Positions 1 to 25,866 of a DNA stretch of 64,000 nt are shown piece after piece (positions within the stretch are counted from its first letter, which is position 1; every line of letters starts with the position of its first letter). The notes beneath the pieces are model-generated. The model saw nothing but the letters and a program-made list of their open reading frames with translations. It was not told the origin of the DNA and made no database searches. The translations under genes and the position numbers were made by a program. The stretch is from NCBI RefSeq assembly GCF_002215495.1, contig NZ_CP021378.1, forward strand, positions 3,100,764 to 3,164,763, written 5' to 3'. The stretch is from Porphyrobacter sp. CACIAM 03H1. GTDB lineage: Bacteria; Pseudomonadota; Alphaproteobacteria; Sphingomonadales; Sphingomonadaceae.

Positions 1-760
1 CAAGCTGCCGGGCGCCGGCGGCGTCGAGTTCGAAGCCGTGGGGATCGCTCAGCGGCCAGCCGCGCGCGGCCATCGCGAAGACCGCCATCGCCCGCCAGGT
101 GCCGCCCACAAGATAGAGCGCCCCGTTCACCTCGGGCGGGTTTGCGGCGAGGTCCCAACCGGCCTTGCGGATCGCCTTGTCGAGCGACTTCCTCATCTCG
201 CCCCGGTTCTTGCCGCGGTGTTCGGGCAGGCGCAGCGTGCCGAGCGGCAGCGTGCTCGCCCCCTCGGTCGTGCCGCCCGCGACCCGCACCAGTTCGAGGC
301 TCCCGCCGCCGAGGTCGGCGACGATCCCGCGCGCCTCGGGGAAGGCACCGATGACGCCGTGGGCGCTGAGCAGCGCCTCCTCCTCGCCGGAGATGACCCG
401 CGGAGACAGGCCGATCGCGCGCAGCTCGGCGACGAAGTCCGGTCCGTTCGCGGCATCGCGCACCGCCGCAGTGGCGACCACCTCGACATCCCTGATCCCG
501 AGATCGCCGAGCAGCAGCGCAAAGCGTCTGAGGCCCCGCAGCGCCAGCCCCATCGCCTCGTCGGCGAGGCGCCCCGTGCTCGCGATCTCGCGCCCGAGCT
601 TGGCCGTCACCTTCTCGTTGAGCAGTACCGTGGGCGCGCGCATCGTGCCGCCGTAGACGACGAGACGCACGGTGTTCGAACCGATGTCGATGATCGCGCG
701 TTCCGGCGTCCCGCCGCTCACGGCGCTCTCGCGGTTTTCCCGCCGCCTGTTCCAGATCAT
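1..760 (-). CDS. ppx: Exopolyphosphatase / guanosine pentaphosphatase (Ppx/GppA), 3' end cut by window edge
   Basis: Cytosolic enzyme that hydrolyses inorganic polyphosphate from the chain end (and/or pppGpp). The translated minus strand shows the sugar-kinase/Hsp70-type ATPase fold signatures of the family: the N-terminal phosphate loop IIDIGSNTVRLVVY near residue 25 and a second loop VADLGGGSLELVR around residue 140. The start ATG at 760 overlaps the ppk stop (ATGA), so translation is coupled to ppk, giving a kinase/phosphatase pair on one messenger. About 253 codons are visible; the family is usually 300-500 residues, so the C-terminal part lies outside the window. Ppx and GppA cannot be separated from this fragment; the linkage to ppk favours Ppx. 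Confidence 0.9.
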   Translation of the reverse strand, partial: MIWNRRRENRESAVSGGTPERAIIDIGSNTVRLVVYGGTMRAPTVLLNEKVTAKLGREIASTGRLADEAMGLALRGLRRFALLLGDLGIRDVEVVATAAVRDAANGPDFVAELRAIGLSPRVISGEEEALLSAHGVIGAFPEARGIVADLGGGSLELVRVAGGTTEGASTLPLGTLRLPEHRGKNRGEMRKSLDKAIRKAGWDLAANPPEVNGALYLVGGTWRAMAVFAMAARGWPLSDPHGFELDAAGARQL

Positions 761-3116: not shown

Positions 3117-4130
3117 TCAGAGGAGCGAGCGGCTGTCGGCGATGCTGGTGATCCCGCGCCTGCCGTTGGCATCGCGGCCAAGCTGCACGATCACGTCGAT
3201 CACGCTCGCGGCATAGGCGATGGTGTCGGAGCGGGTGAGGCCGATGCCGGTCTGCATCACCATCAGCGACAGCTGTTCGAGCGCGCCGCGCAAGCTGTTG
3301 GCGTGGATCGTCGAGAAGCTGCCCGGGTGCCCGGTGTTGATTGCGCGCAGGAAGCTCACGCTCTCCGCGCCGCGCAACTCGCCCAGCACGATACGGTCGG
3401 GGCGCAGGCGCAACGCGGCCTGGAGCAGCTCGTTGGCGGTGACCTTGGCCTCGCCCAGCTCGCCCTTGACCGCGACCAGCCCCACCGCGTTCTCGCCCGG
3501 GAACTTCAGCTCCGGCGTATCCTCGACCAGGACCACGCGCTCGGCCTTGGGGATCTCGCCCAGCATGGCGTTGAGGAAGGTGGTCTTGCCGGTGCTGGTG
3601 CCGCCCGAGATCAGGATCGTGCGCCGCGCCCGGATCGCCGCGCGCAGGAAGGCGATCGGCTGGGTCTGCGGGTCGGGCAGGTCGAACTGCATCTCCCCCG
3701 CGAGCGGGCCCGTGTCATAGGCGTCGAGCGGCAGGTCGAGCCGGCGGTGCCGGCGGATCGCCATCGTCCAGTGCTTGCGGCTGGCGGGCGGTCCGCAGAA
3801 CTGAACGCGCGCGCCGTCGGGCAGCGTCGCGCCGAGCAGCGGGTGTTCGCGGTTGATGCCCTGGTGCGAGACGCGCGCGACCTGTTCGGCGAGGCGCTGC
3901 ACCAGCCGGTCGTCGATCTCCGGGGTCTCGATGCGCTGCATCCCCGGCTGCGCGGCATCCTCGATCCACACCTCACCCGGGCGATTGACCATGATCTCGG
4001 TCACGGTGTCGCGGTCGAGCCAGCGGCGGAACGGCGCGAGATAGGCGTCGAGATAGACGCTGCGCTCCGCCGGGAGCGGCGCGGGTGCCCCGCCCTCCCC
4101 TGAGTCCAGCCGGTGGATGTCCGCGCCCAT
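3117..4130 (-). CDS. virB11: VirB11-type secretion ATPase
   Basis: Hexameric cytoplasmic ATPase that powers type IV secretion pilus assembly and substrate transfer. The 337-residue product has the VirB11 layout: N-terminal domain up to about residue 150, then a RecA-like domain with Walker A GGTSTGKT at 176-183, an Asp box VVLVEDTPELKF, Walker B-like RIVLGELRGAESVSF and the His box GHPGSFSTIHANS. It begins 5 nt after the virB10 stop and is the last vir gene before ppk. Length and all ATPase motifs are intact. Confidence 0.95.
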   Translation of the reverse strand: MGADIHRLDSGEGGAPAPLPAERSVYLDAYLAPFRRWLDRDTVTEIMVNRPGEVWIEDAAQPGMQRIETPEIDDRLVQRLAEQVARVSHQGINREHPLLGATLPDGARVQFCGPPASRKHWTMAIRRHRRLDLPLDAYDTGPLAGEMQFDLPDPQTQPIAFLRAAIRARRTILISGGTSTGKTTFLNAMLGEIPKAERVVLVEDTPELKFPGENAVGLVAVKGELGEAKVTANELLQAALRLRPDRIVLGELRGAESVSFLRAINTGHPGSFSTIHANSLRGALEQLSLMVMQTGIGLTRSDTIAYAASVIDVIVQLGRDANGRRGITSIADSRSLL

Positions 4131-4135
4131 AGCTC

Positions 4136-5272
4136 TCAGCCGCCGACCGCGCTGAAATCGAGATCGCGGGCGGTGAAGACCCGGATCGGCTCGCCCATGC
4201 GCACGCGGATCGTCGGGCTGATCTGGCCCTGCGACTGCACCGCCGAATTGGCCGCGCCCTGCGCGCCCCCGGCGACGATCACGCCGCCGATGCCGCCCGT
4301 CGCCACCGCGCCGAGGCCGCCCACCACCGAGAGCAGCAGGCCCGAGCCGAAGCGCTTGAAGAAGTGGCTGTTGACGTCGCCCTCCAGCCCCGTCGCCCCG
4401 TCGAAGCCGACTGCGGGCGAGCCGAGATTGACCGACACCCCGTCGGGCCGGATCAGGCGGGTCCAGATCACGTAGGCGCGGCGCTGGCCCTGCTGGACGC
4501 CGGCCTGATACTGGCCGATCAGGCGCGAGGAGCGCGGGATCAGCACGCGGCGGCCGTCGAAGCTCTTGACGTCCTGGCTCACCACGGCGCGGACATAGCC
4601 GGGCACGTCGGTGTTGATCGCGGTCTCGAGAATCGCGGGGATCAGCGTGCCTTCGGTCACGGTGGTCGAGGGGTTGGTCATGGCGCGGGCTTGGGCGGGC
4701 GCGCCGCCGACCCCGCCGACGCGGCTGGCGAACTCCGCCGCGCCGCCCGCACCGCCGACCGCCGCGCCCGGCGTGCCCGGGGCCGGCACGGCAGCACCCT
4801 CGGCAACGCGCACGCTGCGCGCCGAGCTTGCGTCGAAGACCAGCTGCGGGCTGGCATAGGGATTGACTGCCGCCTCGGGCATCAACCCCGGATTGTTGAC
4901 CAGCACCGGCGCGGGCGCGGGATCGCCCTGCGGGACGACCGGCACGGCACCGGGCTGCTGCGCCGGATCGACCGGCTGAACCACCACGGGCGCGGCGGCA
5001 GCCTGCGGCGGTGCCACGGCGGGGTTGCCGATGCCCTGCGGTTCGGGGGTGCGCGCGGCGTTCATCGCCCAGAAGGTCACCGCCCCGAGCAGCCCGACCA
5101 CCGCCACCCCGGCGGCGAGCTGCAGCCCGTCGCCCTTGGCCTTGCGGTCGGTCACCGCCGGGAAGGCGGCGCGGCTCGCGAGGTCGATGATCTCGGCGCT
5201 TTCCCGCTCGCGCGGGTCGGCGGCGTCGCCGCCCTCGCCCTTCTTCGGCGGCAGTCGCATGGCCAGACGCAT
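4136..5272 (-). CDS. virB10: VirB10/TrbI-type secretion channel protein
   Basis: Bridges inner and outer membranes in the type IV secretion core. The 378-residue product has a short cytoplasmic N-terminus, one membrane segment at about residues 50-70 (LAAGVAVVGLLGAVTFWAM), a Pro/Ala/Val-rich periplasmic linker, and a C-terminal TrbI domain with the typical stretch VTEGTLIPAILETAINTDVPG, and later RAYVIWTRLIRPDGVSV. The start at 5272 follows an AAGGAGA ribosome site; an alternative ATG lies four codons in. The C-terminal half contains the glycine-rich helices expected to form the outer-membrane pore. Confidence 0.93.
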   Translation of the reverse strand: MRLAMRLPPKKGEGGDAADPRERESAEIIDLASRAAFPAVTDRKAKGDGLQLAAGVAVVGLLGAVTFWAMNAARTPEPQGIGNPAVAPPQAAAAPVVVQPVDPAQQPGAVPVVPQGDPAPAPVLVNNPGLMPEAAVNPYASPQLVFDASSARSVRVAEGAAVPAPGTPGAAVGGAGGAAEFASRVGGVGGAPAQARAMTNPSTTVTEGTLIPAILETAINTDVPGYVRAVVSQDVKSFDGRRVLIPRSSRLIGQYQAGVQQGQRRAYVIWTRLIRPDGVSVNLGSPAVGFDGATGLEGDVNSHFFKRFGSGLLLSVVGGLGAVATGGIGGVIVAGGAQGAANSAVQSQGQISPTIRVRMGEPIRVFTARDLDFSAVGG

Positions 5273-5309: not shown

Positions 5310-6110
5310 TCACTTCTTCTTGCCCCGCGGCGCGGAGAGCCCCGCCTGCCGTGCCGAGGGCGGCATGGGGCCGGTGTTGGTGAGGGTCGCGGTGTCGCGG
5401 CCCGAGCGAAGGATGATCTGCGGCGGCACGCCCTCGACCACGACGGTGGCTCCGCGCACGGTGTAGTTGACCGGCCCCTCGTCGCCATCCTCGTTGGTGA
5501 CGAGAATGGCGGGGATGGCGATGCCCTGCGGCCAGGTGAGGAACACCGCGTCGCCATCGTCATAGGTGCGGGTGGGGATCAGTTCCGCCGCCCCCGCGCT
5601 CGCCCAGGCGAAGTTGAGCTTCGTCGGATCGGCGGCTTGCCCCGGGTCTCCCCCCATCGCGGCCGGTTCCGCCGCCGCGCGCAGGGCCTGCGCCTCGGCC
5701 TCGGCGATCGCGGCGAGGCGCGCTTCCTCGGCGGCTTTCTCGAGCTCGGGATAGCGGAACTGCAGCACATAAAGCGCCGAATTCCGGGGGCTGGCGACGA
5801 GGTCGAAGAGGTAGGTGCGCTTGTCCGTCACCACCGTCATGTTGGTGCGCGCGGCGGGCTCCAGCGGCTTCACGAAGAGGATCGTCTGCGCCTTGTTGGG
5901 CTGCACCTGCCAGGCGGCGCTGTCACCGATGGCGACGTTCTCGATCACCTCGTCGGGGGCGAACTTGATGGTGGTCTGGACCTTCACCTTGCCGTCGATC
6001 CGCACCACGGCGTTCTCGTCGAAGACGAGCGTCTGGAGGCGGTCATCCTGCGCCGCCAGGGGCGCGGCAAGCGTGAGGGCGAGGCTCGCGAGGAGCACGG
6101 CGCGGGTCAT
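5310..6110 (-). CDS. virB9: VirB9/TrbG-type secretion core protein
   Basis: Periplasmic component of the type IV secretion core, normally bound to the VirB7 lipoprotein and VirB10. The 266-residue product has a signal peptide (MTRAVLLASLALTLAAPLAAQ), the N-terminal VirB9 domain with TTIKFAPDEVIENVAIGDSAAWQV, a central Glu/Ala-rich linker (about residues 125-160), and the C-terminal domain PTRTYDDGDAVFLTW ... PAILVTNEDGDEGPVNYTV. Its ATG overlaps the virB6 stop (ATGA), with a GGAG ribosome site upstream. This overlap leaves no room for virB8, which usually sits between virB6 and virB9. Confidence 0.93.
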   Translation of the reverse strand: MTRAVLLASLALTLAAPLAAQDDRLQTLVFDENAVVRIDGKVKVQTTIKFAPDEVIENVAIGDSAAWQVQPNKAQTILFVKPLEPAARTNMTVVTDKRTYLFDLVASPRNSALYVLQFRYPELEKAAEEARLAAIAEAEAQALRAAAEPAAMGGDPGQAADPTKLNFAWASAGAAELIPTRTYDDGDAVFLTWPQGIAIPAILVTNEDGDEGPVNYTVRGATVVVEGVPPQIILRSGRDTATLTNTGPMPPSARQAGLSAPRGKKK

Positions 6111-7309
6111 CGATAGGTCTCCGGAGGGGGGGCTTTGGGCGCCGGCGCGGGGGCGGCGGACGAGGCCGTGCGGAAGCGGTTGCCGATCCCGCGGGTGCGC
6201 GAGGCGGCGGGGCCTGCAGGGCCAGTCTGTCCGCTGCCGCCGCCGGTCGCATAGACGCGGGTTTCGCGCGAAACGGTGCCCGCCGGCCCCGCGTCGTTGG
6301 CGGCAAGGCCGGGCTGGAGTGGGGCGACATCGACCCGGCGGGGGGCCAGCGACGCGCTCGCAGGGGTCAGGGCGGGGCCGCGCGGCGCGGTGCCGACAAC
6401 GGGGCCGGCGACCGGCACGGCTCGCGGCGCTTCCGGCCCGCGCTCGCGCTCCTTCGAAGGCACGAGGCCGAACACCTGCCAGCCCGACACCATCGTGCCC
6501 GCGACCTTCAGCGAAAGCAGCATCAGCGCCATGTGCACCGCGCCGACGAGGAAGAACGCCATCGCCGCCTGCTGGTCGATCTGGCCCGGCACGGCGACCA
6601 GCGCGGCCAGCACCGGCACCGCCATCTCGAGCATGATCGATCCGCCCAGCAACGCGAAGAGCGGCGCCAGCGCCATCATCGTCAGCCCCTTGAGCCAGCC
6701 GGTGAACAGCCCGCGCGTGCCCTCGAATAGGGCCAGCACCACGAAGATCGGCCCGACCGCCAGCAGCAGCGCCAGCGCGATCCGCGCTGTCACCAGCAGG
6801 CCGACCGTGCCGAGCAGGAGCAGCATCGCCCCGATCCACATCATCCCGGGCGGCGAGAAGGCGCTGATGTCCTTGGTGTCCCCGCTCGCCTGCTGGACGG
6901 CGAGGAAGACCACGTCGAGCTTCTGGGCGAAGACGCCCGTGGCGCTCTCTCCGCGCACGCCGGTCAGGATTCCGGCGATCTGGTCCGGCCCGCCGATGAA
7001 GATGTTGTAGAACACGCTCGAGAAGGCGACGAAGCTGGTGGCGAAGGTCAGCACCAGCCCCAGCGTCATCATCTTGGGCACCAGCGCGCGAACCGACAGG
7101 TTCGACCGGCCGAGCATCAGCGAGATGCCGAAGAAGCCGACGTAAAGCCCGAGCAGGATCGTCAGCGCGAGCGCCAGCTGGCCCTCGGTCCCGAAAAGGC
7201 GGTTGAAGGCCTGTTCGGAAACGCCGCTGGCGATGCAGTCGACCGCGGTCAGCGCGGCCGAGACGCCGGTGCCCATCGACTGGGAGGCAGAATCGCAGAT
7301 CGCGCTCAT
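6107..7309 (-). CDS. virB6: VirB6/TrbL-type polytopic inner-membrane protein
   Basis: Inner-membrane channel component of type IV secretion. The 400-residue product (start MSAICDSASQSMGTG chosen because its ATG overlaps the virB4 stop, ATGA) has about six hydrophobic segments between residues 40 and 280, including LALALTILLGLYVGFFGISLML and ALLLAVGPIFVVLALF, the latter typical of the TrbL/VirB6 family. The last roughly 120 residues form an Ala/Pro/Arg-rich, low-complexity soluble tail ending PKAPPPETYR. No NTF2-like VirB8 domain is recognisable in that tail. Confidence 0.88.
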   Translation of the reverse strand: MSAICDSASQSMGTGVSAALTAVDCIASGVSEQAFNRLFGTEGQLALALTILLGLYVGFFGISLMLGRSNLSVRALVPKMMTLGLVLTFATSFVAFSSVFYNIFIGGPDQIAGILTGVRGESATGVFAQKLDVVFLAVQQASGDTKDISAFSPPGMMWIGAMLLLLGTVGLLVTARIALALLLAVGPIFVVLALFEGTRGLFTGWLKGLTMMALAPLFALLGGSIMLEMAVPVLAALVAVPGQIDQQAAMAFFLVGAVHMALMLLSLKVAGTMVSGWQVFGLVPSKERERGPEAPRAVPVAGPVVGTAPRGPALTPASASLAPRRVDVAPLQPGLAANDAGPAGTVSRETRVYATGGGSGQTGPAGPAASRTRGIGNRFRTASSAAPAPAPKAPPPETYR

Positions 7310-9747
7310 TCGGCGGCCTGCCACAGGGTATCGGGATCGGGGTCGCCGGGGCCATCGGGCCACGCCCTGCCGGTGAGCGGCGGATACCAGGCCGAGGGCG
7401 CATCGCCCACAGCCTCGCGCAGCAGATCGAGCCGCCGCACCGCGCTCTCGCGGCCCGAGAGGATCGTCAGCACCTCCGGCGCGCCCGACAGGTCGAGCCG
7501 CACCACCACGCTCGCGTCCGGCTGGCGCACCAGGAAGGCGCGGCTGTGCGCGGGCAGCGAGCGGATCAGGGCGAATTCGTGATCGGTGAGACCGAAGCCG
7601 TCGATATAGTCCTCGGGCCGCGCGCGGCTGTTGGGCATGAACACCATCGTCGCGGTCTGCTCGACCAGCGCGGTGGAGATGCGGCTGTCGAGCGCGTCGC
7701 GCGCCGATTGCGTGGCGAAGCCGACAAGCGCGTTGCGCTTTCTGAGGGTCTTGAGCCAGTCGCGGATGCGCGCGGCGAAGACCTCGTCGTCCAATGCCTT
7801 CCAGCCCTCGTCGATCAAGATCATGGTCGGCTGCCCGTCCAGCCGCTCGTCGATGCGGTGGAACAGGTACATCATCGTCGGCGTGCGCAGGCGCGGGTTC
7901 TCGAGCAGCGCGGTCATGTCGAAGCCGAGCACGCGCTCGGCGAGGTCGAGCCGGTCGCGCTCGTTGTCGAACAGCCAGGCGTGCTCCCCGCCGTCACCGC
8001 CCGGCGAGCCGATCCATGCCGCCAGCCGGTCGGCCAGATCGCCCGGTTCGGGACGCCGCGCGCCCGCGAGCAGTTCCTTGAAGTGCCGCAGGCGCCGCAG
8101 CGAGGGATCATTGGCATAGGTCGCATCGACCGCCGCGCTGATCGTGGCGAATTCCTCGGGCCCTTCCGCCTTGAGCAGCACGGCGAGCCAGTCGCGCAGG
8201 AAGGCACGGTTCGCCGGCGAGTCGGGCAGCGAGAGCGGGTTGAAACCGGTCGGCATCCCCGGCGCGATGCGGTCATAGCGCCCGCCGATACCGCGGATGA
8301 ACAGCTCCGCCCCGCGGTCCTTGTCGAACAGGATGGTGCGGGGTTTGAACTTCTGCGCCTGCGCGGCGAGGAAGTTCATCACCACGGTCTTGCCCGAACC
8401 GCTCGGCCCGATGACCGAGAAATTGCCGAGATCGCCGTGGTGGAAGTTGAAGAAGAACGGCGTGGCGCTGGTGGTCTCCAGCAGCGTCACGGCATCGCCC
8501 CAGTGGTTGCCGCTCGCCTGCCCCAGCGCGAAGCCGTGGAAGCTGCCGAAGCCCGCCATGTTGGCGGACGAGATCAGCGCGCGGCGCACGATGTATTCCT
8601 CGTTGCCGGGGAACTGCGCCCAGAAGGCGGGTTCGAGATTGGTGTCCTCGCGCACAGCGATCGCGCCGGTGTCGGCGAGCGCTGCGGCGCAAGCGGCCAT
8701 CGCGTCGTCGAGGCGGGGGAGCGTCGTCTCGCGCACCAGCACGGTCAGGTGATGATCGCCGAAGCCGACCGCCCCGTTCCCCAGCGCATCGCGCGCGGCG
8801 AGCATCTCCGCCCGCTCAGCAGCAGCCTCCTCGTCGACCGAGCGCGAACGCCTGAGCGCGAGGTCGATCCGCTCCTTGGCGGTGGTGCGCTCGTTGGGGG
8901 CGTAGCTTTCGGTTACGACCATCTCGAAGGGCAGGCGCAGCAGGTTGTCGAGCAGGCCCGGTGAGGTCGCCTCGGGATAGTCCTTGAGGCCGAGGATCGC
9001 GGCGAAATCCGGGGCGGCGCTGCCGCGCAGCTCCATCGCATCGAGCCCGAAGGAAGCGCGGCGATAGGGGAGCATGTGCCCGATGTCGGTTTCGGGCGAA
9101 GGGCGGCGCACCGGGCGCATCTCGCCGTTGTAGAGCGCGCTGAGCAGCTCCAGCATTTCCGAATTGGTGCCGCCCGATCCGGGGGCCTGATAGTCCCCCA
9201 GCACCGCCGCGCCATAGTTCTGCAGGCTGGCGACCAGACCGGTGATCGCCGCCTTGAGGCTGCGGATGTCCTTGGGATCGGCCTCAAGCTCCTCGGCGCC
9301 GGCGCGGCTGAACATCTTCGACAGGCGTTCGGGCAGGCCGGTCTTGCCGCGCGCGGGGCGGCGGATGAGGGTCACGAACTGGTCGTTGATGAACAGCGAT
9401 CCGCCCGCCAGCCGCTGCTTCCATCGCGCATCGATGTGGCGCGAGAGGGGATCGGGGAACTCGGCGTCCAGCTCCACCTCCACCCGGCGGCGGATGACGT
9501 GGTGATACATCACGAAGCGCGCATCGAGCGTGCTCCGCAGCATCACCTCGCGGGTGGCGGCATGGGCGTTCAATGCGTCCGAATCCTCGGTCTCGAACAG
9601 CAGGCCCGGCACCTGGATCGCGCTCATGACCGAGCCGTCGCGCAGGAGCACGGTGTTCTCGTCGATCAGGCGGGCATAGGGCAGGCGGTCGCCGACCCTG
9701 GCTTCCTTGGCGCTCCAGGCGGCGGCGCCGATCCACTTACGGGGCAT
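7306..9747 (-). CDS. virB4: VirB4-type secretion ATPase
   Basis: Large ATPase of the type IV secretion inner-membrane complex. The 813-residue product has the CagE/TrbE/VirB N domain (residues about 150-400) and a C-terminal P-loop domain with Walker A GPSGSGKT near residue 450, Walker B MILIDEGWKAL, and the downstream RKRNALVGFATQSARDAL segment. Length is usual for VirB4 (about 780-830). The start overlaps the end of virB3 by 11 nt; the stop overlaps virB6. The catalytic motifs are intact, so the machine is probably functional. Confidence 0.96.
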   Translation of the reverse strand: MPRKWIGAAAWSAKEARVGDRLPYARLIDENTVLLRDGSVMSAIQVPGLLFETEDSDALNAHAATREVMLRSTLDARFVMYHHVIRRRVEVELDAEFPDPLSRHIDARWKQRLAGGSLFINDQFVTLIRRPARGKTGLPERLSKMFSRAGAEELEADPKDIRSLKAAITGLVASLQNYGAAVLGDYQAPGSGGTNSEMLELLSALYNGEMRPVRRPSPETDIGHMLPYRRASFGLDAMELRGSAAPDFAAILGLKDYPEATSPGLLDNLLRLPFEMVVTESYAPNERTTAKERIDLALRRSRSVDEEAAAERAEMLAARDALGNGAVGFGDHHLTVLVRETTLPRLDDAMAACAAALADTGAIAVREDTNLEPAFWAQFPGNEEYIVRRALISSANMAGFGSFHGFALGQASGNHWGDAVTLLETTSATPFFFNFHHGDLGNFSVIGPSGSGKTVVMNFLAAQAQKFKPRTILFDKDRGAELFIRGIGGRYDRIAPGMPTGFNPLSLPDSPANRAFLRDWLAVLLKAEGPEEFATISAAVDATYANDPSLRRLRHFKELLAGARRPEPGDLADRLAAWIGSPGGDGGEHAWLFDNERDRLDLAERVLGFDMTALLENPRLRTPTMMYLFHRIDERLDGQPTMILIDEGWKALDDEVFAARIRDWLKTLRKRNALVGFATQSARDALDSRISTALVEQTATMVFMPNSRARPEDYIDGFGLTDHEFALIRSLPAHSRAFLVRQPDASVVVRLDLSGAPEVLTILSGRESAVRRLDLLREAVGDAPSAWYPPLTGRAWPDGPGDPDPDTLWQAAE

Positions 9748-10021
9748 AGGAGTTGCACCCCCAACGCTTGAAATTGGGCACGCGCGGGCACTTGCTGACC
9801 TTGGTGATCCACAGGTCGAAGATCCGTGGTTCGCGCAGGGAAGCGAAATAGCCGATCACGTGCATCACCACCGGAACGGGCAGGATCCACCAGCTCTTGA
9901 GGATCAGGAAGGCGATCGTCGTCACCATCAGGTTGATGATGAAGAAGTTCATCGTCACGCCGGCGAACATCTGCGGGCGGGTGAGCGCGCGGTGCACCGG
10001 ATGGCGGAGGAGATCGCTCAC
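9737..10021 (-). CDS. virB3: VirB3-type inner-membrane protein
   Basis: Short inner-membrane partner of VirB4. The 94-residue product starts MSDLLRHPVHRALTRPQMFAGV, which matches the family N-terminal pattern (L..P...ALTRP....GV), followed by two hydrophobic segments around residues 20-40 and 43-60, and a C-terminal tail with RIFDLWITK. It sits 4 nt after virB2 and overlaps virB4 by 11 nt. Confidence 0.92.
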   Translation of the reverse strand: MSDLLRHPVHRALTRPQMFAGVTMNFFIINLMVTTIAFLILKSWWILPVPVVMHVIGYFASLREPRIFDLWITKVSKCPRVPNFKRWGCNSYAP

Positions 10022-10025
10022 GGGT

Positions 10026-10349
10026 CTAACCGGCCGCCGACTGGATGCCGGCGACGATGGTGGTCGCGCCGAACAGGATGAACACGCCGACGATCACGGT
10101 CGCGCCGAAGCGCCAGTTCATGCGGCCGGTGAGCATCATGAAGCCGATCGCAGCGACCGCCATGACGGCGACGGTCGTGGCGACCGTGCCGAGCAGCGTG
10201 CCCTGGAGCCAGAGCAGCGCGTTGTTGATCGGGCCGGAGCCGGCCGGGTCGGCGCCTTGCGCGAAGGCGGCGGTGTGGGCCGAGACCAGCGCGAGGGCGG
10301 CCATGATGCGGGCGGGAAGGCGGAACGGGGCGTTCATTGGTCGTGTCAT
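10026..10349 (-). CDS. virB2: VirB2/TrbC-type pilin
   Basis: Major pilus subunit precursor. The product (107 residues from the ATG at 10349; a second ATG lies at 10337) has a long signal peptide ending near TAAFAQG and a mature part with two hydrophobic helices, LLGTVATTVAVMAVAAIGF and ATVIVGVFILFGATTIVA, separated by the short polar turn GRMNWRFG. This is the classic VirB2 hairpin. The gene lies between virB1 and virB3, as in canonical virB operons. Confidence 0.9.
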   Translation of the reverse strand: MTRPMNAPFRLPARIMAALALVSAHTAAFAQGADPAGSGPINNALLWLQGTLLGTVATTVAVMAVAAIGFMMLTGRMNWRFGATVIVGVFILFGATTIVAGIQSAAG

Positions 10350-10378: not shown

Positions 10379-11026
10379 TCACTGACCTGCGGGGCGCGAA
10401 TGGCTGGCGAGCCGCCCCATGATGGCGGCGACATAGTGGCGGGTCTCGCGTATGTTCGGGATGCCCCCGGCACGCTCGACGCGGCCCGGGCCGGCATTGT
10501 AGGCGGCGAGCGCTTTCTCGAGATCCCCGTCGAAGCGGTCGAGCTGTTCGCGCAGGTAGCGCGCCCCGCCCTCGAGATTGGCGAAGGGATCGTTGGGATT
10601 GACGCCAAGATAGCGCGCCGTTCCCGGCATGAGCTGGGCGAGGCCCTGCGCGCCGACGGGCGAGCGCGCGTTCTCGTTCCAGCGGCTCTCCTGCCACACC
10701 ACGGCTTCCATCAGCGCCGGCGAGAGATCGAAGCGGGCGGCCAGTTCGGCGATCTTTGCGGCATAGCGCGTCGGGATGCCCGCGGCGTGGCGCGCGGGAT
10801 CGGCGATGGCAATCGCAGGGAGCGACGGCGCATCGTCAAGGCCTGCATCGGCGGGCGGCGCGAGGGCGGCCACGGCGGTGCCCGGCACGGCCGGCTGGCC
10901 CGCGAGCGGCCCCGCGACCCAGCGCGCACCGTCGGACCCGAGCTCCAGCACATCGGCTCGCGCCTCGACCGCCAGCCCGATCGCGGCAGCTACAATCATG
11001 ACGCGGCAAGCCGCGGCGAGAATCAT
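10379..11026 (-). CDS. virB1: VirB1-like lytic transglycosylase
   Basis: Periplasmic peptidoglycan-cleaving enzyme that opens the wall for the secretion apparatus. The 215-residue product has a signal peptide (about residues 1-24), a spacer, and an SLT domain from about 85 to 205 with the catalytic Glu113 in VVWQESRWN, followed by SPVGAQGLAQLMPGTA and the closing AYNAGPGRV. It is the first gene of the vir run, 29 nt before virB2, with a Pho-box about 40 nt upstream of its start. Confidence 0.92.
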   Translation of the reverse strand: MILAAACRVMIVAAAIGLAVEARADVLELGSDGARWVAGPLAGQPAVPGTAVAALAPPADAGLDDAPSLPAIAIADPARHAAGIPTRYAAKIAELAARFDLSPALMEAVVWQESRWNENARSPVGAQGLAQLMPGTARYLGVNPNDPFANLEGGARYLREQLDRFDGDLEKALAAYNAGPGRVERAGGIPNIRETRHYVAAIMGRLASHSRPAGQ

Positions 11027-11066
11027 GTCTCGGCCCTCCAGAATGTCCCCCTTTGTCTATCCTAAA

Positions 11067-11084
11067 TGACAGACAGGTGACAGC
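11067..11084 (-). promoter_or_regulatory. Pho-box (PhoB operator) upstream of virB1
   Basis: On the minus strand: CTGTCAC-ctgt-CTGTCAT. Both heptamers match the PhoB half-site CTGTCA(C/T), spaced by exactly 4 nt, and the site points toward virB1, whose start is 41 nt away. A clear -10 hexamer was not identified. This suggests PhoB-dependent expression of the virB genes under phosphate limitation; regulation itself is inference. Confidence 0.7.
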
Positions 11085-11198: not shown

Positions 11199-11606
11199 CT
11201 AGTCGCGCAGGGTCAGCTGTCCGGCGCGGGTGGGCGCGGGACGGAACTCGCCGCGCTCGAGCATTTTGATCGCCTTGCGCGCGAGGCGGCGCGAATCGGT
11301 GGCGCTGCCGTCGGCGGTGTCGAGCTCGACCACCTCGTGACACGCCAGCGCCTGTTCGAAGGCGGCGCGCGCCTTCGCCTCGTCGCCCGCGTGGGCATAG
11401 GCGATGCCGAGATTGATCAGGACCGCCGGATCGTGCGGATCGGCCGCGCTCGCCTTTTCGAGGGTCGCGAGCGCCTGCTCGGCCTTCCCGGCGACAAGCG
11501 GCCGGACCGCGAGTTCGGGGGCGTCGGCAAGTGCCGCCGACGGGACACCTGCGAGCGGGGTCGCGGCGAACAGCGCGACGGCAAGGGCGGTGACGGACAT
11601 GGGCAT
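11199..11606 (-). CDS. Small exported TPR-repeat protein
   Basis: The 135-residue product has a signal peptide (MPMSVTALAVALFAATPLAG...ALA) and a tetratricopeptide-like segment (residues about 40-85, ATLEKASAADPHDPAVLINLGIAYAHAGDEAKARAAFEQAL), so it is probably a periplasmic protein-interaction module. The C-terminal third, DSRRLARKAIKMLERGEF, resembles tails of other short sphingomonad TPR proteins. The start at 11606 is supported by an AAGAGGAG ribosome site. It is bounded by its own terminator and does not form an obvious operon. No specific partner can be named. Confidence 0.75.
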   Translation of the reverse strand: MPMSVTALAVALFAATPLAGVPSAALADAPELAVRPLVAGKAEQALATLEKASAADPHDPAVLINLGIAYAHAGDEAKARAAFEQALACHEVVELDTADGSATDSRRLARKAIKMLERGEFRPAPTRAGQLTLRD

Positions 11607-11920
11607 GGCTCCTCTTCTACAAGCGGGCATGATGCCTTTGCGCGGAACCGAATGCAACAAAACTGAAACAATGTCTTTCTATTGTAATTTTTCAGCCCAA
11701 CTAATTGTTTCTGCTCGCTCTATTTGTGACATTTCGCCGAACGGCGTGCATCACGCCTCGCGGAAATCGCGGTCACATTTGTCTTTCTTCGGTCATATTC
11801 GCGAATATGACACACGCCTGTAATCCTGCAAGAATTCTGTCACGCAGCCCTCCTAGCGAGCCCCCAGCGCATCAACACAAGCGCCGTTATGATTCTCGGC
11901 TCAAGAGGGGACCGCTCGCT
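11607..11920. promoter_or_regulatory. AT-richer divergent promoter region
   Basis: This 314-nt gap separates the TPR gene (minus) from the lipoprotein gene (plus). It is clearly richer in A/T than its surroundings (especially 11640-11730). It holds an inverted repeat GGCGTG-cat-CACGCC at 11743-11757 and the 20-bp palindrome listed separately. No small ORF with convincing coding character was seen. Confidence 0.6.
11792..11811. promoter_or_regulatory. 20-bp perfect palindrome, candidate operator
   Basis: GTCATATTCGCGAATATGAC reads identically on both strands. It lies about 110 nt upstream of the lipoprotein/TonB receptor pair. A perfect 20-bp dyad in an A/T-rich promoter region is what a dimeric repressor or activator site looks like; the cognate regulator is not identified. 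Confidence 0.55.
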
Positions 11921-13486
11921 GTGAAAAACATCCAACGCACTCTGATCCTGGGTTGCAGCCTGGTCGCTCTGGCCGGTTGCGGCGCTGACGAAATCGTTTC
12001 GCCGGGCACCGGTGGGAACATCATCATCAACAACCCGCCGCCCTCGCCCACCCCGACCCCGACCCCGACGCCGACCCAGACGCTGGTGACCCCGGCCGCA
12101 GGCTGCCCGACCATCGCCACCCCCGGCGGCCTCGTCGACGGCGGCACCCTCACCGGCCCAACCGGCACCTATCGCGTGTGCCGCCTGCCGGCGCGCTTCA
12201 CCACCACCGACAGCCTGCCCTACATCCGCGGCCTCGTTTACGAGATCCCGGGCCGCGTCGAAGTCGGCGCCGACCGCGGCTTCTCGAGCACCGGCAGCAC
12301 CGTGACCCTCACGATCGAGCCGGGCGTGATCCTCTTCGCGCAGCAGGATTCCTACCTGGTGGTCAACCGCGGCAACCAGATCCAGTCGAACGGCACCGCC
12401 GATCGCCCGATCGTGTGGACCAGCCGCGACAACATCATCGGCCTCGCCAACGACAACAGCCAGCAGCAGTGGGGCGGCGTCGTGCTGCTCGGCCGCGCGC
12501 CGATCTCCGACTGCTCGACCGGCGTGTTCAACACCACCGCCAGCCCGAATGCCAACCCGACCTGCGAAGGCCGCCTCGAAGGCGCGGCGATCGCGACCCC
12601 GTTCGGCGGCGCCAACGCGGCCGACAACTCGGGCTCGTTCCGATTCAACCAGATCCGCTTCTCGGGCTTCGAGCTGGCGCCGAACAACGAGCTCCAGTCG
12701 CTGACCACCGGCGGCGCGGGCTCGGGCACGGTGATCGAGAACCTCGTCTCGTTCAACAGCTCGGATGACGGCGTCGAGTTCTTCGGTGGCGGTTTCAATG
12801 CCCGCAACTTCGCCATTATCGGCGCCTCGGACGACTCGCTCGATGTGGACACCGGCGCGATCGTCAATCTCGACACCGTGATCGCGGTGCAGCGTTCCTC
12901 GACCGGCGACCGCCTGATCGAGCTCGACTCGCCCAACGTCGCCGACCGCACCCCCTCCAACGCGATCCCGCAGACGCGCTTGCAGGTGAACAACTTCACC
13001 TTCGTGACCCGCGCGGGCGCGCCGCAGGTCGTGCAGGCCCGCGGCGGCGCGGCGCTCGGCCTCACCAACGGCGTGATCGATGCCGGCACCAACCACTGCT
13101 TCCAGATCGACGAGCCCGCGACCCTCGCGGCGATCATCGGCGTGGACTCGGTGGTCGGCGACTGCCCGGCGACCGACCCGATCCGCGGCGGTGCGGGCGT
13201 GACAAACGCCGACGCAGCGGCGCGCATCAATGGCGGCACCAATAACAACTTCGCCTTCACAATCACGCTGACCAACGGCGTGGTCAACGGCGCGGGCGAG
13301 ACGGCGCGCACCGCGTTCAACGCCAACACCCGGTCGACCTTCTTCCCGACCCGCACTTTCGTGGGTGCGATCCAGAACGCCGGGGCGCTGACCAGCATCT
13401 TCGGCAACTGGACCTGCAACTCGTCGATCCAGAACTTCAGCAGCGCGACCGGCGCCTGCACCTCGCTGCCGGTCTACCCGGCCTAA
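11921..13486 (+). CDS. Surface lipoprotein, partner of the following TonB receptor
   Basis: The 521-residue product starts at GTG (AAGAGGGG upstream) and has a lipoprotein signal, LILGCSLVALAGC, with the lipobox Cys at residue 20. A Pro/Thr hinge (PTPTPTPTPTQT, residues about 43-55) leads to a long Gly/Asn/Thr-rich domain with repeated short beta-strand motifs and the run IVWTSRDNIIG ... QQQWGGVVLLGRAPISDC, suggestive of a parallel beta-helix. It lies 100 nt before a TonB-dependent receptor gene, so a surface substrate-binding role is likely, but the family was not firmly recognised and the substrate is unknown. Confidence 0.7.
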   Translation: MKNIQRTLILGCSLVALAGCGADEIVSPGTGGNIIINNPPPSPTPTPTPTPTQTLVTPAAGCPTIATPGGLVDGGTLTGPTGTYRVCRLPARFTTTDSLPYIRGLVYEIPGRVEVGADRGFSSTGSTVTLTIEPGVILFAQQDSYLVVNRGNQIQSNGTADRPIVWTSRDNIIGLANDNSQQQWGGVVLLGRAPISDCSTGVFNTTASPNANPTCEGRLEGAAIATPFGGANAADNSGSFRFNQIRFSGFELAPNNELQSLTTGGAGSGTVIENLVSFNSSDDGVEFFGGGFNARNFAIIGASDDSLDVDTGAIVNLDTVIAVQRSSTGDRLIELDSPNVADRTPSNAIPQTRLQVNNFTFVTRAGAPQVVQARGGAALGLTNGVIDAGTNHCFQIDEPATLAAIIGVDSVVGDCPATDPIRGGAGVTNADAAARINGGTNNNFAFTITLTNGVVNGAGETARTAFNANTRSTFFPTRTFVGAIQNAGALTSIFGNWTCNSSIQNFSSATGACTSLPVYPA

Positions 13487-13539: not shown

Positions 13540-13587
13540 TCATTCGCATCAAGACTCAGTGATCCATTCATGAGGGGGTCCTCACCA

Positions 13588-16332
13588 ATGCTCAAAGGCA
13601 CGCGCCTTGCAGGCCTGCTGCTTCTCACCACGGCGCTGACCATGCCGTCGGTTCTCCACGCGCAGGAAACGCCGCCCGAGGAGACGTCCACCGAGCAGGC
13701 CGGTGATCCGCTGGCCGACGCTGTCGAAGGCGAGCCCCCGGCCCAGGACCTTCAGGATACCGACATCTCCCTGCCCGGCGGCGGGATCATCGTCACCGGC
13801 CGCCGCAACCGCGATCCCGCACGCACCTCGGGCCAGGTGCTGAGCGTGCTGTCGGAAGCCGACATCGCCCGCAGCGGCGAAGGCGACATCGCCGGCGCGC
13901 TGACCCGCGTCAGCGGCCTCTCGCTCGTCGGCAACGGCCGCGTCTTCGTGCGCGGTTTGGGCGACCGCTATTCGCTCGCGCTGCTCAACGGCCTCCCGCT
14001 GCCGAGCCCCGAGCCCCTCAGCCGCGTCGTTCCGCTGGACATCTTCCCGACCAGCGTGATCTCCTCCAGCCTCGTGCAGAAGACCTATTCGGCCAACTTC
14101 CCGGGCGAATTCGGTGGCGGGGTGATCAACCTCACCACCAAGGCGATCCCGACCGAGACCTTCCTCACCGTCGGCTTCTCGGGCAGCGGGGACACCGAGA
14201 CGACCTTCCAGAACGGCCTCACCTATTTCGGCAGCCGCTGGGACACCTTCGGCTTCGACAATGGCAACCGCGACTTCCCGAGCGCGCTGCAGGACGCAAT
14301 CGCGAGCAACACCCGCATCAACGACCTGCCGATCGCCCAGCAGCGCCAGCTCGCCGGGCAGATCATGCCGCTCAACCTCGTCACGCTGCAGAAGAACAAC
14401 GAGCTGCCGATCAACTTCAGCGCCAATGTGACCGGCGGCACCTCCTTCGAGATCGGTGACGGCAACTACCTCGGCCTGATTGCGACCGCCGGGATCACCA
14501 ACACCTGGCGCAACCGCAACGTCACCAGCCAGCAGTTCGGCGACGCGGAGGCGGGCCAGCTCCTGTTCGATTCGCGCAACTTCATCACCGACAACAAGGT
14601 GCTGGTGAACGGCCTGATCGGCCTCGGGCTCGACATCGGCGAGCACACGATCCGCTGGACCAACCTCTACATCCGCGACACCCTCAAGACCGCGCGCCTC
14701 GCGACCGGCACCGACAGCTTCACCGACGTCGCGCGCCCGTTCGAGTTCCAGACCCAGCAGACCGGCTGGTTCGAGCGCCAGCTGATGGACTCGCAGCTCG
14801 TCGCCGAATTCAACTTCGACCGCTTCGAGCTCGACCTGCGCGGCGGCTATGCCCGCACCGACCGTGAGGCGCCCTACAACGCGATCGTCCCCTACATCCG
14901 CACCAACATCCCCAACGATCCCTTCGGCGACAAGTTCGTGGTCGATGTGGGCGCCCTGATCGGCGGGACCGAGCGCATCCAGGTCGGCTTCGAGGATCTG
15001 CGCGAGGAACTCTGGTTCGGCGGTGCGGACGTGACCTTCGAGGTCACCGACACGCTCTCGCTGACCGCGGGCTACGCCTATTCGGACACCTCGCGCCGCT
15101 CGCTGTCCTTCATCATCCGCCCCCTGATCGGCTCCACCGCCGAATTCACCACCGCCCTGCGCGCGCTGGGCCTGCGGCGGCCGGGCGAGATCTTCAACGG
15201 CGCGACGCTCGCCTCCGGGGTCATCCCCCCGGCGACCACCGCGCAGCCCTTCTTCAACATCACGGTCTCCGACCCCACCCCCTTTCCCGTATTCGACGCC
15301 GCGCTGACAGTGCACGCGGGCTACGGCCTCGCGCGCTACCGGCCGACCGACCGGCTCAGCCTCGAGGCGGGCGTGCGCTACGAGGACGGGTTGCAGGTGG
15401 CGGCGCCCGATCCCGCTTTCGGCGGCGGCAACCTCGCCAACCCGACGCGGATCGCCAACGACTACTTCCTGCCCTCGGCCACGGTCACCTGGGAGGCGAT
15501 CGACGATCTCCAGCTGCGCCTCTCGGCCTCGCAGACCATCGCCCGCCCGCAGTTCCGCGAGCTGGTCGAGCAGACCTATTTCGATCCGGAATCGAACCGC
15601 CGTTTCCGCGGCAACCCCTTCCTGATCGACAGCGAGCTGATCAACGTCGAGGCCCGCGCCGAGTATTACTTCGGCGGCCCGCGCCGGGTGAGCCTCGCGG
15701 GCTTCTTCAAGAAGATCGACAACCCGATCGAGAACTTCCTGATCACCGCCCCGGGCATCATCGAGACCAGCTACGCCAACGCGCCCGAGGCCGAGCTCTA
15801 CGGCGCCGAGTTCGATTTCGCCTACGGGATCGACCTCGCCAACTGGGGCGGGTTCTTCGAGACCAAGCAATTCCTGATCCTCGCCAACTACACCTACACC
15901 CAGTCGAGCATCGCGGTCGGGCCGAACGATCTGGCCCCGATCCCGGGGGCGATCGGCCAGGCGGCGAGCCAGCTGTTCGACGACGGCGCGCCGCTGGTGG
16001 GCCAGTCGGACCATGTCGCCAACCTCTCGCTCGGCATCGAGGACGACGACAAGGTCCAGCAGTTCACCGTGCTGTTCAACTACGCCAGCGAGCGCGTGAC
16101 CCTGCGCGGCGGCGCCCTGCCCGACGTGGTCGAGGACCCGGGCCTGACGGTCGACGTGGTGGCGCGTTCGGAAGTGAAGCTCGGCGGCTTGCCGCTCGAA
16201 GTGAGCCTCGAGGCGCGCAACATCTTCGGCCGCGACAACTTCGAGTTCCAGCAGATCAACGGCAACCGCGCCGAGATCAACACCTTCGACGTGGGCACGA
16301 GCTTCTCGATCGGGATCAAGGCGGAGTTCTGA
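13588..16332 (+). CDS. TonB-dependent outer-membrane receptor
   Basis: High-affinity active importer in the outer membrane, driven by TonB. The product (914 residues from the ATG at 13588, preceded by GAGGGGG; an upstream ATG is at 13570) has a signal peptide (MLKGTRLAGLLLLTTALTMPSVLHA), a plug domain (about residues 60-190) with SEADIARSGEGDIAGALTRV, VRGLGDRYSLALLNG and NFPGEFGGGVINLTTK, and a long beta-barrel ending in the aromatic C-terminus GIKAEF. It forms a pair with the upstream lipoprotein. No substrate can be read from the sequence. Confidence 0.95.
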   Translation: MLKGTRLAGLLLLTTALTMPSVLHAQETPPEETSTEQAGDPLADAVEGEPPAQDLQDTDISLPGGGIIVTGRRNRDPARTSGQVLSVLSEADIARSGEGDIAGALTRVSGLSLVGNGRVFVRGLGDRYSLALLNGLPLPSPEPLSRVVPLDIFPTSVISSSLVQKTYSANFPGEFGGGVINLTTKAIPTETFLTVGFSGSGDTETTFQNGLTYFGSRWDTFGFDNGNRDFPSALQDAIASNTRINDLPIAQQRQLAGQIMPLNLVTLQKNNELPINFSANVTGGTSFEIGDGNYLGLIATAGITNTWRNRNVTSQQFGDAEAGQLLFDSRNFITDNKVLVNGLIGLGLDIGEHTIRWTNLYIRDTLKTARLATGTDSFTDVARPFEFQTQQTGWFERQLMDSQLVAEFNFDRFELDLRGGYARTDREAPYNAIVPYIRTNIPNDPFGDKFVVDVGALIGGTERIQVGFEDLREELWFGGADVTFEVTDTLSLTAGYAYSDTSRRSLSFIIRPLIGSTAEFTTALRALGLRRPGEIFNGATLASGVIPPATTAQPFFNITVSDPTPFPVFDAALTVHAGYGLARYRPTDRLSLEAGVRYEDGLQVAAPDPAFGGGNLANPTRIANDYFLPSATVTWEAIDDLQLRLSASQTIARPQFRELVEQTYFDPESNRRFRGNPFLIDSELINVEARAEYYFGGPRRVSLAGFFKKIDNPIENFLITAPGIIETSYANAPEAELYGAEFDFAYGIDLANWGGFFETKQFLILANYTYTQSSIAVGPNDLAPIPGAIGQAASQLFDDGAPLVGQSDHVANLSLGIEDDDKVQQFTVLFNYASERVTLRGGALPDVVEDPGLTVDVVARSEVKLGGLPLEVSLEARNIFGRDNFEFQQINGNRAEINTFDVGTSFSIGIKAEF

Positions 16333-17519: not shown

Positions 17520-18194
17520 TCACCCCAAATCGAAGACGTAGCCCAGCGAACGCACCGTGCGCAGCGGGTTGCCGCCGCCCGCAGCCTTGATCGCGCGGCG
17601 CAGGCGGCCGATCCACACGTCCACCGTGCGCTCGTCGATCGGGGGTTCGCGCTTGCCGAGGCCGTTGATGAGGTCCTCGCGGGTCAGCACGCGGTTGGGG
17701 TTCTCGGCGAGGAAGCGCAGCAGCCGGAACTCGTTGGGCCTGAGCACGATCGGAGTGTCGTTCCAGCGCGCCTGGAGCGCGGCCATGTCGATCACCAGCG
17801 CGCCAAGCTCGAAGCGCCGCGTCGCCTGCCGCTCGGCCCCGCGCGATTGCAGCGCCAGCACCCGGTCGAGCACCGCGGTGCGGGTCAGCGGGCCGACGAG
17901 ATAATCATCCGCCCCGGCCCGCAGCGCGCGGCGGCGGTCCTCGGCGTCGTCCTCCTCCAGCACGATGGTGATATGCGCATCCTCGGTGCGCGGGTCGGCG
18001 CGCAGCCGGCGGCACATCTCCAGCCCCGCGAGTTCGGGCATGACCCAGTCTACGAAGGCCCACATCGGCCCCTCGACCAGCCGCCGCGGCCCGTCCGGCC
18101 CGAGCCGGTCGAAGGTGAAGCGGCGCTGGTCGTGCACGAAATCCTCGAGGCTTTCGCCCAGTTCGCTCGTCAGGAAGATATTGACGACATCCAT
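17520..18194 (-). CDS. OmpR/PhoB-type DNA-binding regulator with degenerate receiver
   Basis: The 224-residue product has an N-terminal receiver-like domain (1-115) and a C-terminal winged helix (125-224) with the usual signature FRLLRFLAENPNRVLTREDLI ... ERTVDVWIGRLRRAI ... RTVRSLGYVF. The receiver keeps Asp49 in FVDWVMPELAG, but the acidic pair near the N-terminus is replaced by uncharged residues (NIFLTSE), the switch Thr/Ser region reads IVLEEDD, and the Lys before the final loop is missing (DYLVGPLT). Classical phosphorylation is therefore doubtful. No sensor kinase is adjacent. Targets are unknown. Confidence 0.85.
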   Translation of the reverse strand: MDVVNIFLTSELGESLEDFVHDQRRFTFDRLGPDGPRRLVEGPMWAFVDWVMPELAGLEMCRRLRADPRTEDAHITIVLEEDDAEDRRRALRAGADDYLVGPLTRTAVLDRVLALQSRGAERQATRRFELGALVIDMAALQARWNDTPIVLRPNEFRLLRFLAENPNRVLTREDLINGLGKREPPIDERTVDVWIGRLRRAIKAAGGGNPLRTVRSLGYVFDLG

Positions 18195-18321
18195 GTTTGC
18201 CAGCCCCGGTTTGGTGCCGGAGTGGCGCAGCGGTGTGACGCGTTTGTGACTGGATTGCAGCGATGTGTAACAATTGGCGCAACGGCGGGGCAGGACCGCG
18301 ATGCAGCTGGCGCCGTGCGCG

Positions 18322-22919: not shown

Positions 22920-22944
22920 GGGAGAGAGGCTTTCGGCTGATTTG

Positions 22945-22961
22945 TTGCGAATGACTTGCAA
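22945..22961. promoter_or_regulatory. Fur box upstream of fbpA
   Basis: TTGCGAATGACTTGCAA is a near-perfect dyad (TTGC arms with matched internal bases) and strongly resembles the alphaproteobacterial Fur site TTGCGAAT-ATTCGCAA. It is placed between the fbpC stop and the fbpA start, indicating iron repression of fbpA. Regulation is inference from the match. Confidence 0.65.
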
Positions 22962-22984
22962 TATTATTCAATGCCGCGCAAGGC

Positions 22985-24004: not shown

Positions 24005-24027
24005 TGGCGCTGTCCGCAGGAAACGAG

Positions 24028-25710: not shown

Positions 25711-25720
25711 GACTCCTCCT

Positions 25721-25790
25721 CCTTTCGTGTCGAGCGAAGTCGAGACACCCTACCTTGCAACCGGCCTCTCGACTTCGCTCGAGGCGAACG
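25721..25790. repeat. Intergenic inverted repeat (REP-like)
   Basis: TCGAGCGAAGTCGAGA (25730-25745) recurs as its exact reverse complement TCTCGACTTCGCTCGA (25767-25782) with a 21-nt loop. This 16-bp arm type is a common dispersed palindrome in sphingomonads. As RNA it forms a strong stem after fbpB and may end or protect that transcript. Confidence 0.7.
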
Positions 25791-25835
25791 GAGACTGAGA
25801 AAACTGTCTAGCCAGCTTGTCACTGGACTTGTCCA

Positions 25836-25851
25836 AACCTTCGCGAAGGTT
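25836..25851. promoter_or_regulatory. 16-bp perfect palindrome in the bchI leader
   Basis: AACCTTCGCGAAGGTT, 15 nt before the bchI ATG. It is either a hairpin occluding or framing the ribosome site (AAGGTGAG lies just downstream) or an operator. No perfect PpsR site is present before bchI; the nearest is TGT-N12-TCA at 25805-25822. Confidence 0.45.
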
Positions 25852-25866
25852 CACAAGGTGAGCCGC

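Follow-up and report, generated by a model that had tools for sequence, protein, structure and literature searches.

A reduced virB operon with the same gene set as the one analysed here was reported in Citromicrobium in 2012 (PMC3338782). For Erythrobacter, the type IV secretion system (T4SS), its genome-linked evolution and its neighbours have already been described, with one copy in all 14 genomes (PMC4919336). The published neighbourhood, with the T4SS genes, a TonB transporter and an iron ABC transporter upstream of photosynthesis clusters, is shared by the locus studied here (PMC4919336, PMC3338782). The accessible parts of these papers discuss the operon in terms of gene exchange or DNA import, without a shown role (PMC3338782), and make no link to phosphate (PMC4919336, PMC3338782); the word 'phosphate' occurs 0 times in PMC4919336. 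In the locus studied here, a Pho box lies before virB1. The locus belongs to a 64,000-nucleotide stretch of Porphyrobacter sp. CACIAM 03H1, hereafter the window, which covers positions 3,100,764-3,164,763 of a single-contig genome of 3,525,023 bases.

In Caulobacter crescentus, elpS, the TonB receptor gene cc0171 and the type II secretion system (T2SS) genes gspC-N stand together (PMC2996285). This T2SS is described as part of the PhoB regulon (PMC11208175), unlike in PMC2996285, where its genes are expressed alike in rich and poor media. The window locus resembles this phosphate-starvation locus in that genes for a lipoprotein and a TonB receptor adjoin those of a secretion machine, and a similar order occurs in relatives without virB. 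It differs in that the machine is a T4SS instead of a T2SS, and its lipoprotein is likened to ElpS by gene placement. By this analogy, Erythrobacter-type bacteria seem to carry the phosphate device of Caulobacter fitted with another machine.

Some T4SSs do without VirD4 and export proteins that have already reached the periplasm (PMC12857230). Bordetella Ptl, which exports from the periplasm in two steps, has no VirD4, like the window operon, and no VirB5, for which the window operon shows no free gene slot, but it has VirB7 and one known substrate (PMC12857230). Helicobacter ComB also has no VirD4 and no VirB5; it contains VirB7 and VirB8 and no VirB11, whereas in the window operon VirB11 is present and VirB7 and VirB8 were not found (PMC12857230). 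The Ptl-like absence of VirD4 was seen at the window locus, the ComB gene set (VirB2-4 plus VirB6-10, without VirB11) was not matched, and the VirB/D4-type (P-type) core of VirB2, B3, B4, B6, B9, B10 and B11 was present in full. Ptl also has VirB8, and we know of no link between Ptl and phosphate. In Agrobacterium, Winans is said to have described in 1990 a phosphate-responsive promoter of virG, by which phosphate starvation feeds the control of a virB system; that control is indirect, via a regulatory gene, whereas the box in the window lies directly on the virB operon.

Two candidate precedents were set aside, namely Coxiella, where phoBR is induced in the host with no T4SS link in the available part of the source (PMC4647677), and the nutrient control of conjugation in Acinetobacter, where the available part makes no phosphate link (PMC10746170). 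A multi-omics study of a phosphate-limited biofilm with Erythrobacteraceae gives PhoD peptides for one of them (PMC5468372). Among the matches listed from the open-licence literature, we found neither a Pho box on the virB operon of the Erythrobacter-type group, nor the box conservation, the likeness of layout to pstC and gspC, or the near-exclusion of T2SS described below. The sequence-only reading of the window had called a phosphate-controlled T4SS unusual. This holds insofar as no Pho box on virB was found in print, and is tempered by the phosphate-responsive secretion known from the Caulobacter T2SS (PMC11208175).

Gene content of the virB operon

The operon lies on the minus strand and consists of virB1, 2, 3, 4, 6, 9, 10 and 11. 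virB1 encodes a lytic transglycosylase with an SLT domain (10379..11026; PF01464), virB2 a pilin of the TrbC/VirB2 type (10026..10337; PF04956), and virB3 (9737..10021; PF05101) is followed by the virB4 ATPase gene (7306..9747; PF03135, Walker A GPSGSGKT). virB6 (TrbL/VirB6; 6107..7309) matched PF04610 on a longer frame, virB9 (5310..6110) matched PF03524 and reached 187 bits against TIGR02781, below the cut-off of 217.7, and virB10 (TrbI; 4136..5272) matched PF03743. The virB11 ATPase (3117..4130; Walker A GGTSTGKT) scored 298 bits against TIGR02788 (cut-off 250). The earlier assignment of the operon to type IV secretion is borne out by the identification of VirB1 (SLT), B2, B3, B4, B6, B9, B10 and B11. 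Across the loci surveyed, the Walker A motif was found in 43 of 45 VirB4 picks and in all 38 VirB11 picks.

A search for virB1 in 199 genomes of the window's GTDB family gave 75 clear orthologues including the window's own; the cut of E below 1e-50 was our own choice from the result table, and weaker matches were dropped. A broad distribution over the class was rejected: in a sample of 289 of its genomes, there were 3 true orthologues, all from the window's family and one of them the window's own genome, and 6 further genomes showed weak partial matches. VirB8 (PF04335) was absent from the virB locus in the 75 genomes and had no match genome-wide in 46 of them; VirD4 (PF02534) was likewise absent from the locus in all 75 and had no match genome-wide in 35. 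At the sensitivity of the search, neither protein was found anywhere in 28/75 genomes. Match positions relative to the virB locus were judged by eye, and some drafts are fragmentary. For VirB7, a simple pattern scan of the window between 3000 and 11100 gave no lipobox match on the operon strand, and by coordinates alone there is no free gene slot for VirB5 among the eight virB genes.

Working T4SSs rarely lack VirB8, which speaks against the reading proposed below. A second T4SS region, probably a mobile element, was observed at 1.940-1.956 Mb of the same genome. Its VirB8 and VirD4-like protein may assist the virB machine in the window genome. The export of DNA or effectors in the usual way, which had been suggested for this operon, is unlikely, because VirD4 and VirB8 are missing from the locus and both are missing genome-wide in 28 of the 75 genomes.

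The Pho box and the virB1 promoter

The Pho box (CTGTCACctgtCTGTCAT) occupies 11066-11083 on the minus strand, upstream of virB1. Its half-sites, CTGTCAC and CTGTCAT, form a direct repeat around the 4-nt linker ctgt and match at 14/14 positions. These heptamers, their linker and their place on the coding strand had been read correctly from the sequence; the coordinates first given, 11067..11084, exceed the true ones by one base, and the virB1 ATG at 11026 lies 39 nt from the box, where 41 nt had been stated. When both strands were scanned, this was the sole perfect match in the genome. With up to 2 mismatches there were 46 genome sites vs 22 for the reversed pattern, and with up to 3 the 13 sites in the window were not above chance (mean 9.88), so weak Pho-box matches alone mean little. 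Regions around 22 other genome sites were examined, and some of these sites precede genes for a PhoD-like phosphatase, phoU, a GDPD phosphodiesterase or a TonB receptor, as is expected of a Pho regulon. Many of the remaining matches lie inside genes and are probably due to chance.

Conservation of the box was assessed on the coding strand from 300 nt upstream of virB1 to 60 nt inside it, with distances counted from the start of the virB1 match. A box of at least 12/14 (scores 12-14) was present in 61 of the 75 orthologues and lacking in 14, compared with 1/75 on the opposite strand and 45/2320 random windows. Random windows, here and below, came from the loci under study and so include real promoters. 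In a second set, collected by title from Porphyrobacter, Erythrobacter, Qipengyuania, Pontixanthobacter and other Erythrobacteraceae/Sphingomonadales, such a box preceded virB1 in 41 of 44 loci. The two sets are not independent trials, because some loci belong to both and the genomes behind them are kin; the titled set also includes, twice, two contigs or contig ends from the same assembly. We aligned 68 virB1 promoters on their box (at least 11/14; 7/75 omitted). The half-sites were near-invariant, as selection at 11/14 favours, and upstream information was almost nil; downstream of the box, T, CA and GG positions were conserved, which that selection does not favour. A chance box is ruled out by this sharp footprint within diverged flanks together with the conservation (61/75, 41/44). 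The sequence-only reading had named loss of the box in close relatives as what would count against it, and the box is kept there.

At positions 11-12 after the box in the window stands CA (11054..11055, minus strand), the probable first two bases of the -10 element. The promoters examined numbered 75 for virB1, 30 for pstC, 20 for the orphan regulator described below and 13 for gspC. Among those with a box of at least 11/14, YA occurred at 11-12 nt in 63/68, 12/12, 15/15 and 11/11, respectively, whereas random windows had it at that spacing in 73/232, a control that was drawn from the same loci and hence contains real promoters. CA itself was found there in 55/61 virB1, 12/12 pstC and 18/19 regulator promoters. 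For pstC the layout concerns 12 of the 30 promoters, as 18 had no box of 11/14 within 250 nt. The YA position is, we take it, where the -10 element begins at E. coli-like Pho spacing, and pst is the classic PhoB-activated operon. Since virB1 has its layout in common with the boxed pstC, PhoB-like-regulator and gspC promoters, PhoB activation is likely, and it is the simplest reading of the virB1 promoter.

Box and spacing together, used as one pattern, gave 1 exact match in the genome, at virB1. A further 11 matches have one mismatch, and pstC, phoD and the regulator gene belong to these; the total of 12 compares with 2 for the reversed control. The genome encodes PhoB, PhoR, PhoU and PstC at 2.076-2.084 Mb. 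The canonical PhoB reached 341 bits against TIGR02154 (cut-off 296), and PhoR 273 bits against its best family, TIGR02966, below the cut-off of 334. The regions upstream of virB2, virB3, virB4, virB6, virB11, ppk, the TPR gene and the TonB receptor gene showed no enrichment of boxes with the right spacing; for TPR, 3/16 had a box of at least 11/14 and none of these had YA. We also rejected ppx as a boxed gene: 13/24 of its regions scored at least 11, and these boxes were not counted because none had YA at 11-12. Taken together, the virB1 box is a conserved promoter element positioned to drive the virB operon. Phosphate control of the T4SS operon, as first proposed from the sequence, is thus very likely in view of the box conservation and the boxed-pstC-like layout, and judged from the promoter a PhoB-activated virB operon is highly probable.

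The surrounding island and type II secretion

The neighbourhood of virB was surveyed over up to 19 kb at the window and at 45 of the remaining 74 orthologues, which makes 46 loci. The commonest order was PhoB-like regulator, TonB receptor, lipoprotein, TPR, virB1-11, ppk and ppx; it varied in several loci, for example with ppk-ppx upstream of virB (L086, L087). The receptor was picked in at least 33 of the loci, ppk in at least 31 and ppx in at least 24, and these counts are lower bounds, with some picks antisense, because a GC3-based ORF script picked the genes. In the window, ppk for polyphosphate kinase 1 follows virB11 (757..2958, minus strand; NF003919/TIGR03705). It had no conserved Pho box (5/31 regions scored at least 11/14, 3 of them with YA), and a promoter of its own is possible. 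The TPR protein gene upstream of virB1 (11199..11630, minus strand) was assigned by PF14559 and synteny.

On the plus strand lie the genes for a predicted secreted lipoprotein with an N-terminal LAGC lipobox (11921..13486), placed like Caulobacter ElpS and without a Pfam or NCBIfam match, and for the TonB-dependent receptor (13570..16332; PF00593, PF07715). Degenerate Pho-type half-sites, CTGCAAG-aatt-CTGTCAC, precede them (11826..11843, plus strand), with TA 11-12 nt downstream. Half-site arrays of the Pho type were found in lipoprotein promoters, reaching at least 12/14 in 12/25 and in 3/25 on the opposite strand. The best-scoring half-site pair was followed by YA in 2/19 lipoprotein promoters from T4SS loci and 2/10 from T2SS loci; the arrays in lipoprotein promoters are longer. 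In the window, several TGTCA-like half-sites are arrayed before the lipoprotein gene at 11779-11854, and arrays of 11-bp repeats resembling this one precede the gene in many relatives. Among the 66 virB genomes with the lipoprotein gene, 55 carry it no farther than 10 kb from virB1. The virB box was kept in 52 of these 55 vs 9 of the 20 genomes where the gene is elsewhere or absent (p = 8e-6, Fisher, kinship uncorrected), so the virB box and the island tend to occur together.

The orphan PhoB-like response regulator (17520..18194, minus strand; PF00486/PF00072) scored 143 bits against TIGR02154, below the cut-off of 296, and a Pho-type box, CAGTCAC-aaac-GCGTCAC, stands before it (18235..18252, minus strand). 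The pattern GTCAY-N6-GTCAY was present in 19/20 orthologous regulator promoters and in 64/4600 random windows. The regulator itself (E<1e-45) was observed in 56/75 virB genomes and 7/124 others.

GspK served to trace the T2SS in the same 199 genomes. At E<=1e-6 it was found in 0/75 virB genomes vs 72/124 genomes without a virB1 orthologue, and 52/199 had neither system; the Fisher test on this contrast leaves kinship uncorrected, too. At E<=1e-3 the counts were 7/75 vs 81/124; the 7 matches in virB genomes were weak, 6 of them above the Pfam cut-off, and fell in frames of 174-202 aa in 6 cases and of 1176 aa in one, so a few GspK-like proteins may exist there. The 21 genomes behind the titled T4SS loci gave 1 match above the cut-off, itself weak (E 3e-5), and 2 more below it. 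T2SS and T4SS have been described as overrepresented in Qipengyuania (PMC9241875). Our results stand against the available part of that report, as 5 Qipengyuania genomes had no GspK match above the cut-off and 2 of them had matches below it.

In T2SS genomes that have the lipoprotein, its gene lay within 20 kb of gspK in 26/60 and not near it in 34/60. We fetched 20 non-virB loci, 17 of which were picked for lipoprotein-gspK proximity, and these same 17 are the loci whose T2SS genes adjoin a TonB receptor. GspC, D, E, F, J, K, M, N and the prepilin peptidase were confirmed at the T2SS loci, and GspL at one locus below the Pfam cut-off. Of 13 gspC picks from 12 loci, 11 had a box of at least 11/14 with YA at 11-12. 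One virB-less genome (G119) retains all other members of the island, from the regulator, receptor, lipoprotein and TPR genes to ppk and ppx, and has a T2SS elsewhere; no box of at least 11/14 was found at its virB-less position. Another locus (L228) was seen with regulator, TonB receptor and lipoprotein, no virB, no ppk nearby, and only a weak GspK match in its genome.

The exclusion of T2SS and T4SS is phylogenetically clumped. A tree of 53 receptors requires 5 changes of the T4SS label and 4 of the T2SS label, one change being added by L230, which was labelled 'none' despite T2SS genes beside its receptor. Independent pairs on this tree stood 4 to 0 against co-occurrence, with one uninformative, which is non-significant (p = 0.125). 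The TonB receptor of one T4SS locus (L064) fell within the T2SS-linked receptors, which points to exchange of the receptor/lipoprotein pair.

Proposed role and alternatives

Our overall reading, which we regard as evenly poised, is that a PhoB-activated, coupling-protein-free reduced T4SS does the phosphate-starvation export that is done elsewhere by a T2SS. At low phosphate, PhoB~P would bind both direct repeats before virB1 and recruit RNA polymerase to the -10 element 11 nt downstream, and virB1-B2-B3-B4-B6-B9-B10-B11 would be transcribed. The products would assemble a reduced T4SS without VirD4, B5, B7 and B8. With no coupling protein to supply it with cytoplasmic substrates, such a machine would most likely work in two steps like a T2SS: substrates, presumably scavenging proteins, would cross the inner membrane by Sec or Tat, and the T4SS would then carry them outward; alternatively, a VirB2 pseudopilus might push them out. 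The released phosphate-scavenging proteins could cooperate with the neighbouring lipoprotein and TonB receptor, and the neighbouring ppk and ppx could store and mobilise the phosphate gained. We place this function, a two-step exporter for phosphate starvation, just under even chances.

Uptake of nucleic-acid phosphate, which the sequence-only reading had also suggested, is possible, but the near-exclusion of T2SS and a neighbourhood in common with Pho-boxed T2SS genes point more to the export of scavenging proteins. The conserved Pho box of the T4SS and its position, which in many relatives is taken by a T2SS, suggest a role in phosphate scavenging and not in gene trade. It is conceivable, though we hold it only tentatively, that in the Erythrobacter lineage a conjugation-derived T4SS displaced the T2SS as the PhoB-controlled machine of phosphate starvation, scavenging without a coupling protein or VirB8. 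If so, one secretion machine can replace another under the same type of promoter and beside the same partners, and the locus would show how little of the VirB system suffices. The conserved Pho box and the location in a phosphate island give the reduced virB operon a testable job.

The main rival, though unlikely, is that the T4SS is a starvation-induced, ComB-like importer that takes extracellular DNA to the periplasm, where it would supply phosphorus or serve transformation. The lack of a coupling protein is shared with ComB (PMC12857230), the same reduced virB2-4/6/9-11 set was suggested to import DNA in the Citromicrobium study (PMC3338782), and a Pho box would suit nutritional use of DNA. 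However, the operon is the reverse of ComB in B7, B8 and B11, no competence or nuclease gene is among the named conserved island families, and import leaves the near-exclusion of T2SS unexplained.

It is distinctly unlikely that the orphan regulator of the island, and not PhoB, is the main reader of the box, in which case the signal may differ from phosphate. A box of at least 12/14 was found in 51/56 genomes with the regulator vs 10/19 without it (p 0.0007, Fisher, kinship uncorrected), the regulator's own promoter has the same box and spacing, and PhoB is its best NCBIfam model, if below cut-off. Yet those 10 genomes, about half of those without the regulator, retain a good box, and boxed pstC promoters show the same layout. 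The match of the regulator to the PhoB model starts only at residue 43, which makes normal phosphorylation doubtful.

A T4SS that makes only a surface pilus, attaching the cell to phosphate-rich particles or cells as in Bartonella Trw, seems improbable. VirB2 pilin and both ATPases are encoded, and the VirD4-less Trw has been proposed mainly as a pilus maker (PMC12857230), but judged by gene content the operon has no slot for the VirB5 tip protein, and a pilus, too, would leave the near-exclusion of T2SS unexplained. Repression of virB by PhoB is very improbable: a TANNNT-like hexamer lies 1 nt beyond the box, with T conserved at positions 2 and 7, and were it the -10 element, the box would lie in the spacer, but we set that hexamer aside in favour of YA at 11-12, and pstC, which is expected to be activated, has the same layout with YA in 12/12 boxed promoters.

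Two minor observations concern other phosphate and transport genes. At locus L088 (7598-9862), phoU occurs a second time, preceded by a Pho-type box and beside a phosphate-selective porin O/P gene, separate from the phoU-phoB-pstC locus. Beyond the island in the window, at 21870-26868, lie an ABC transporter set with a solute-binding protein, which going by the available part of PMC4919336 is probably for iron, and a gene for a magnesium chelatase subunit. The latter marks the edge of a photosynthesis gene cluster, an arrangement known from phototrophic Erythrobacter.
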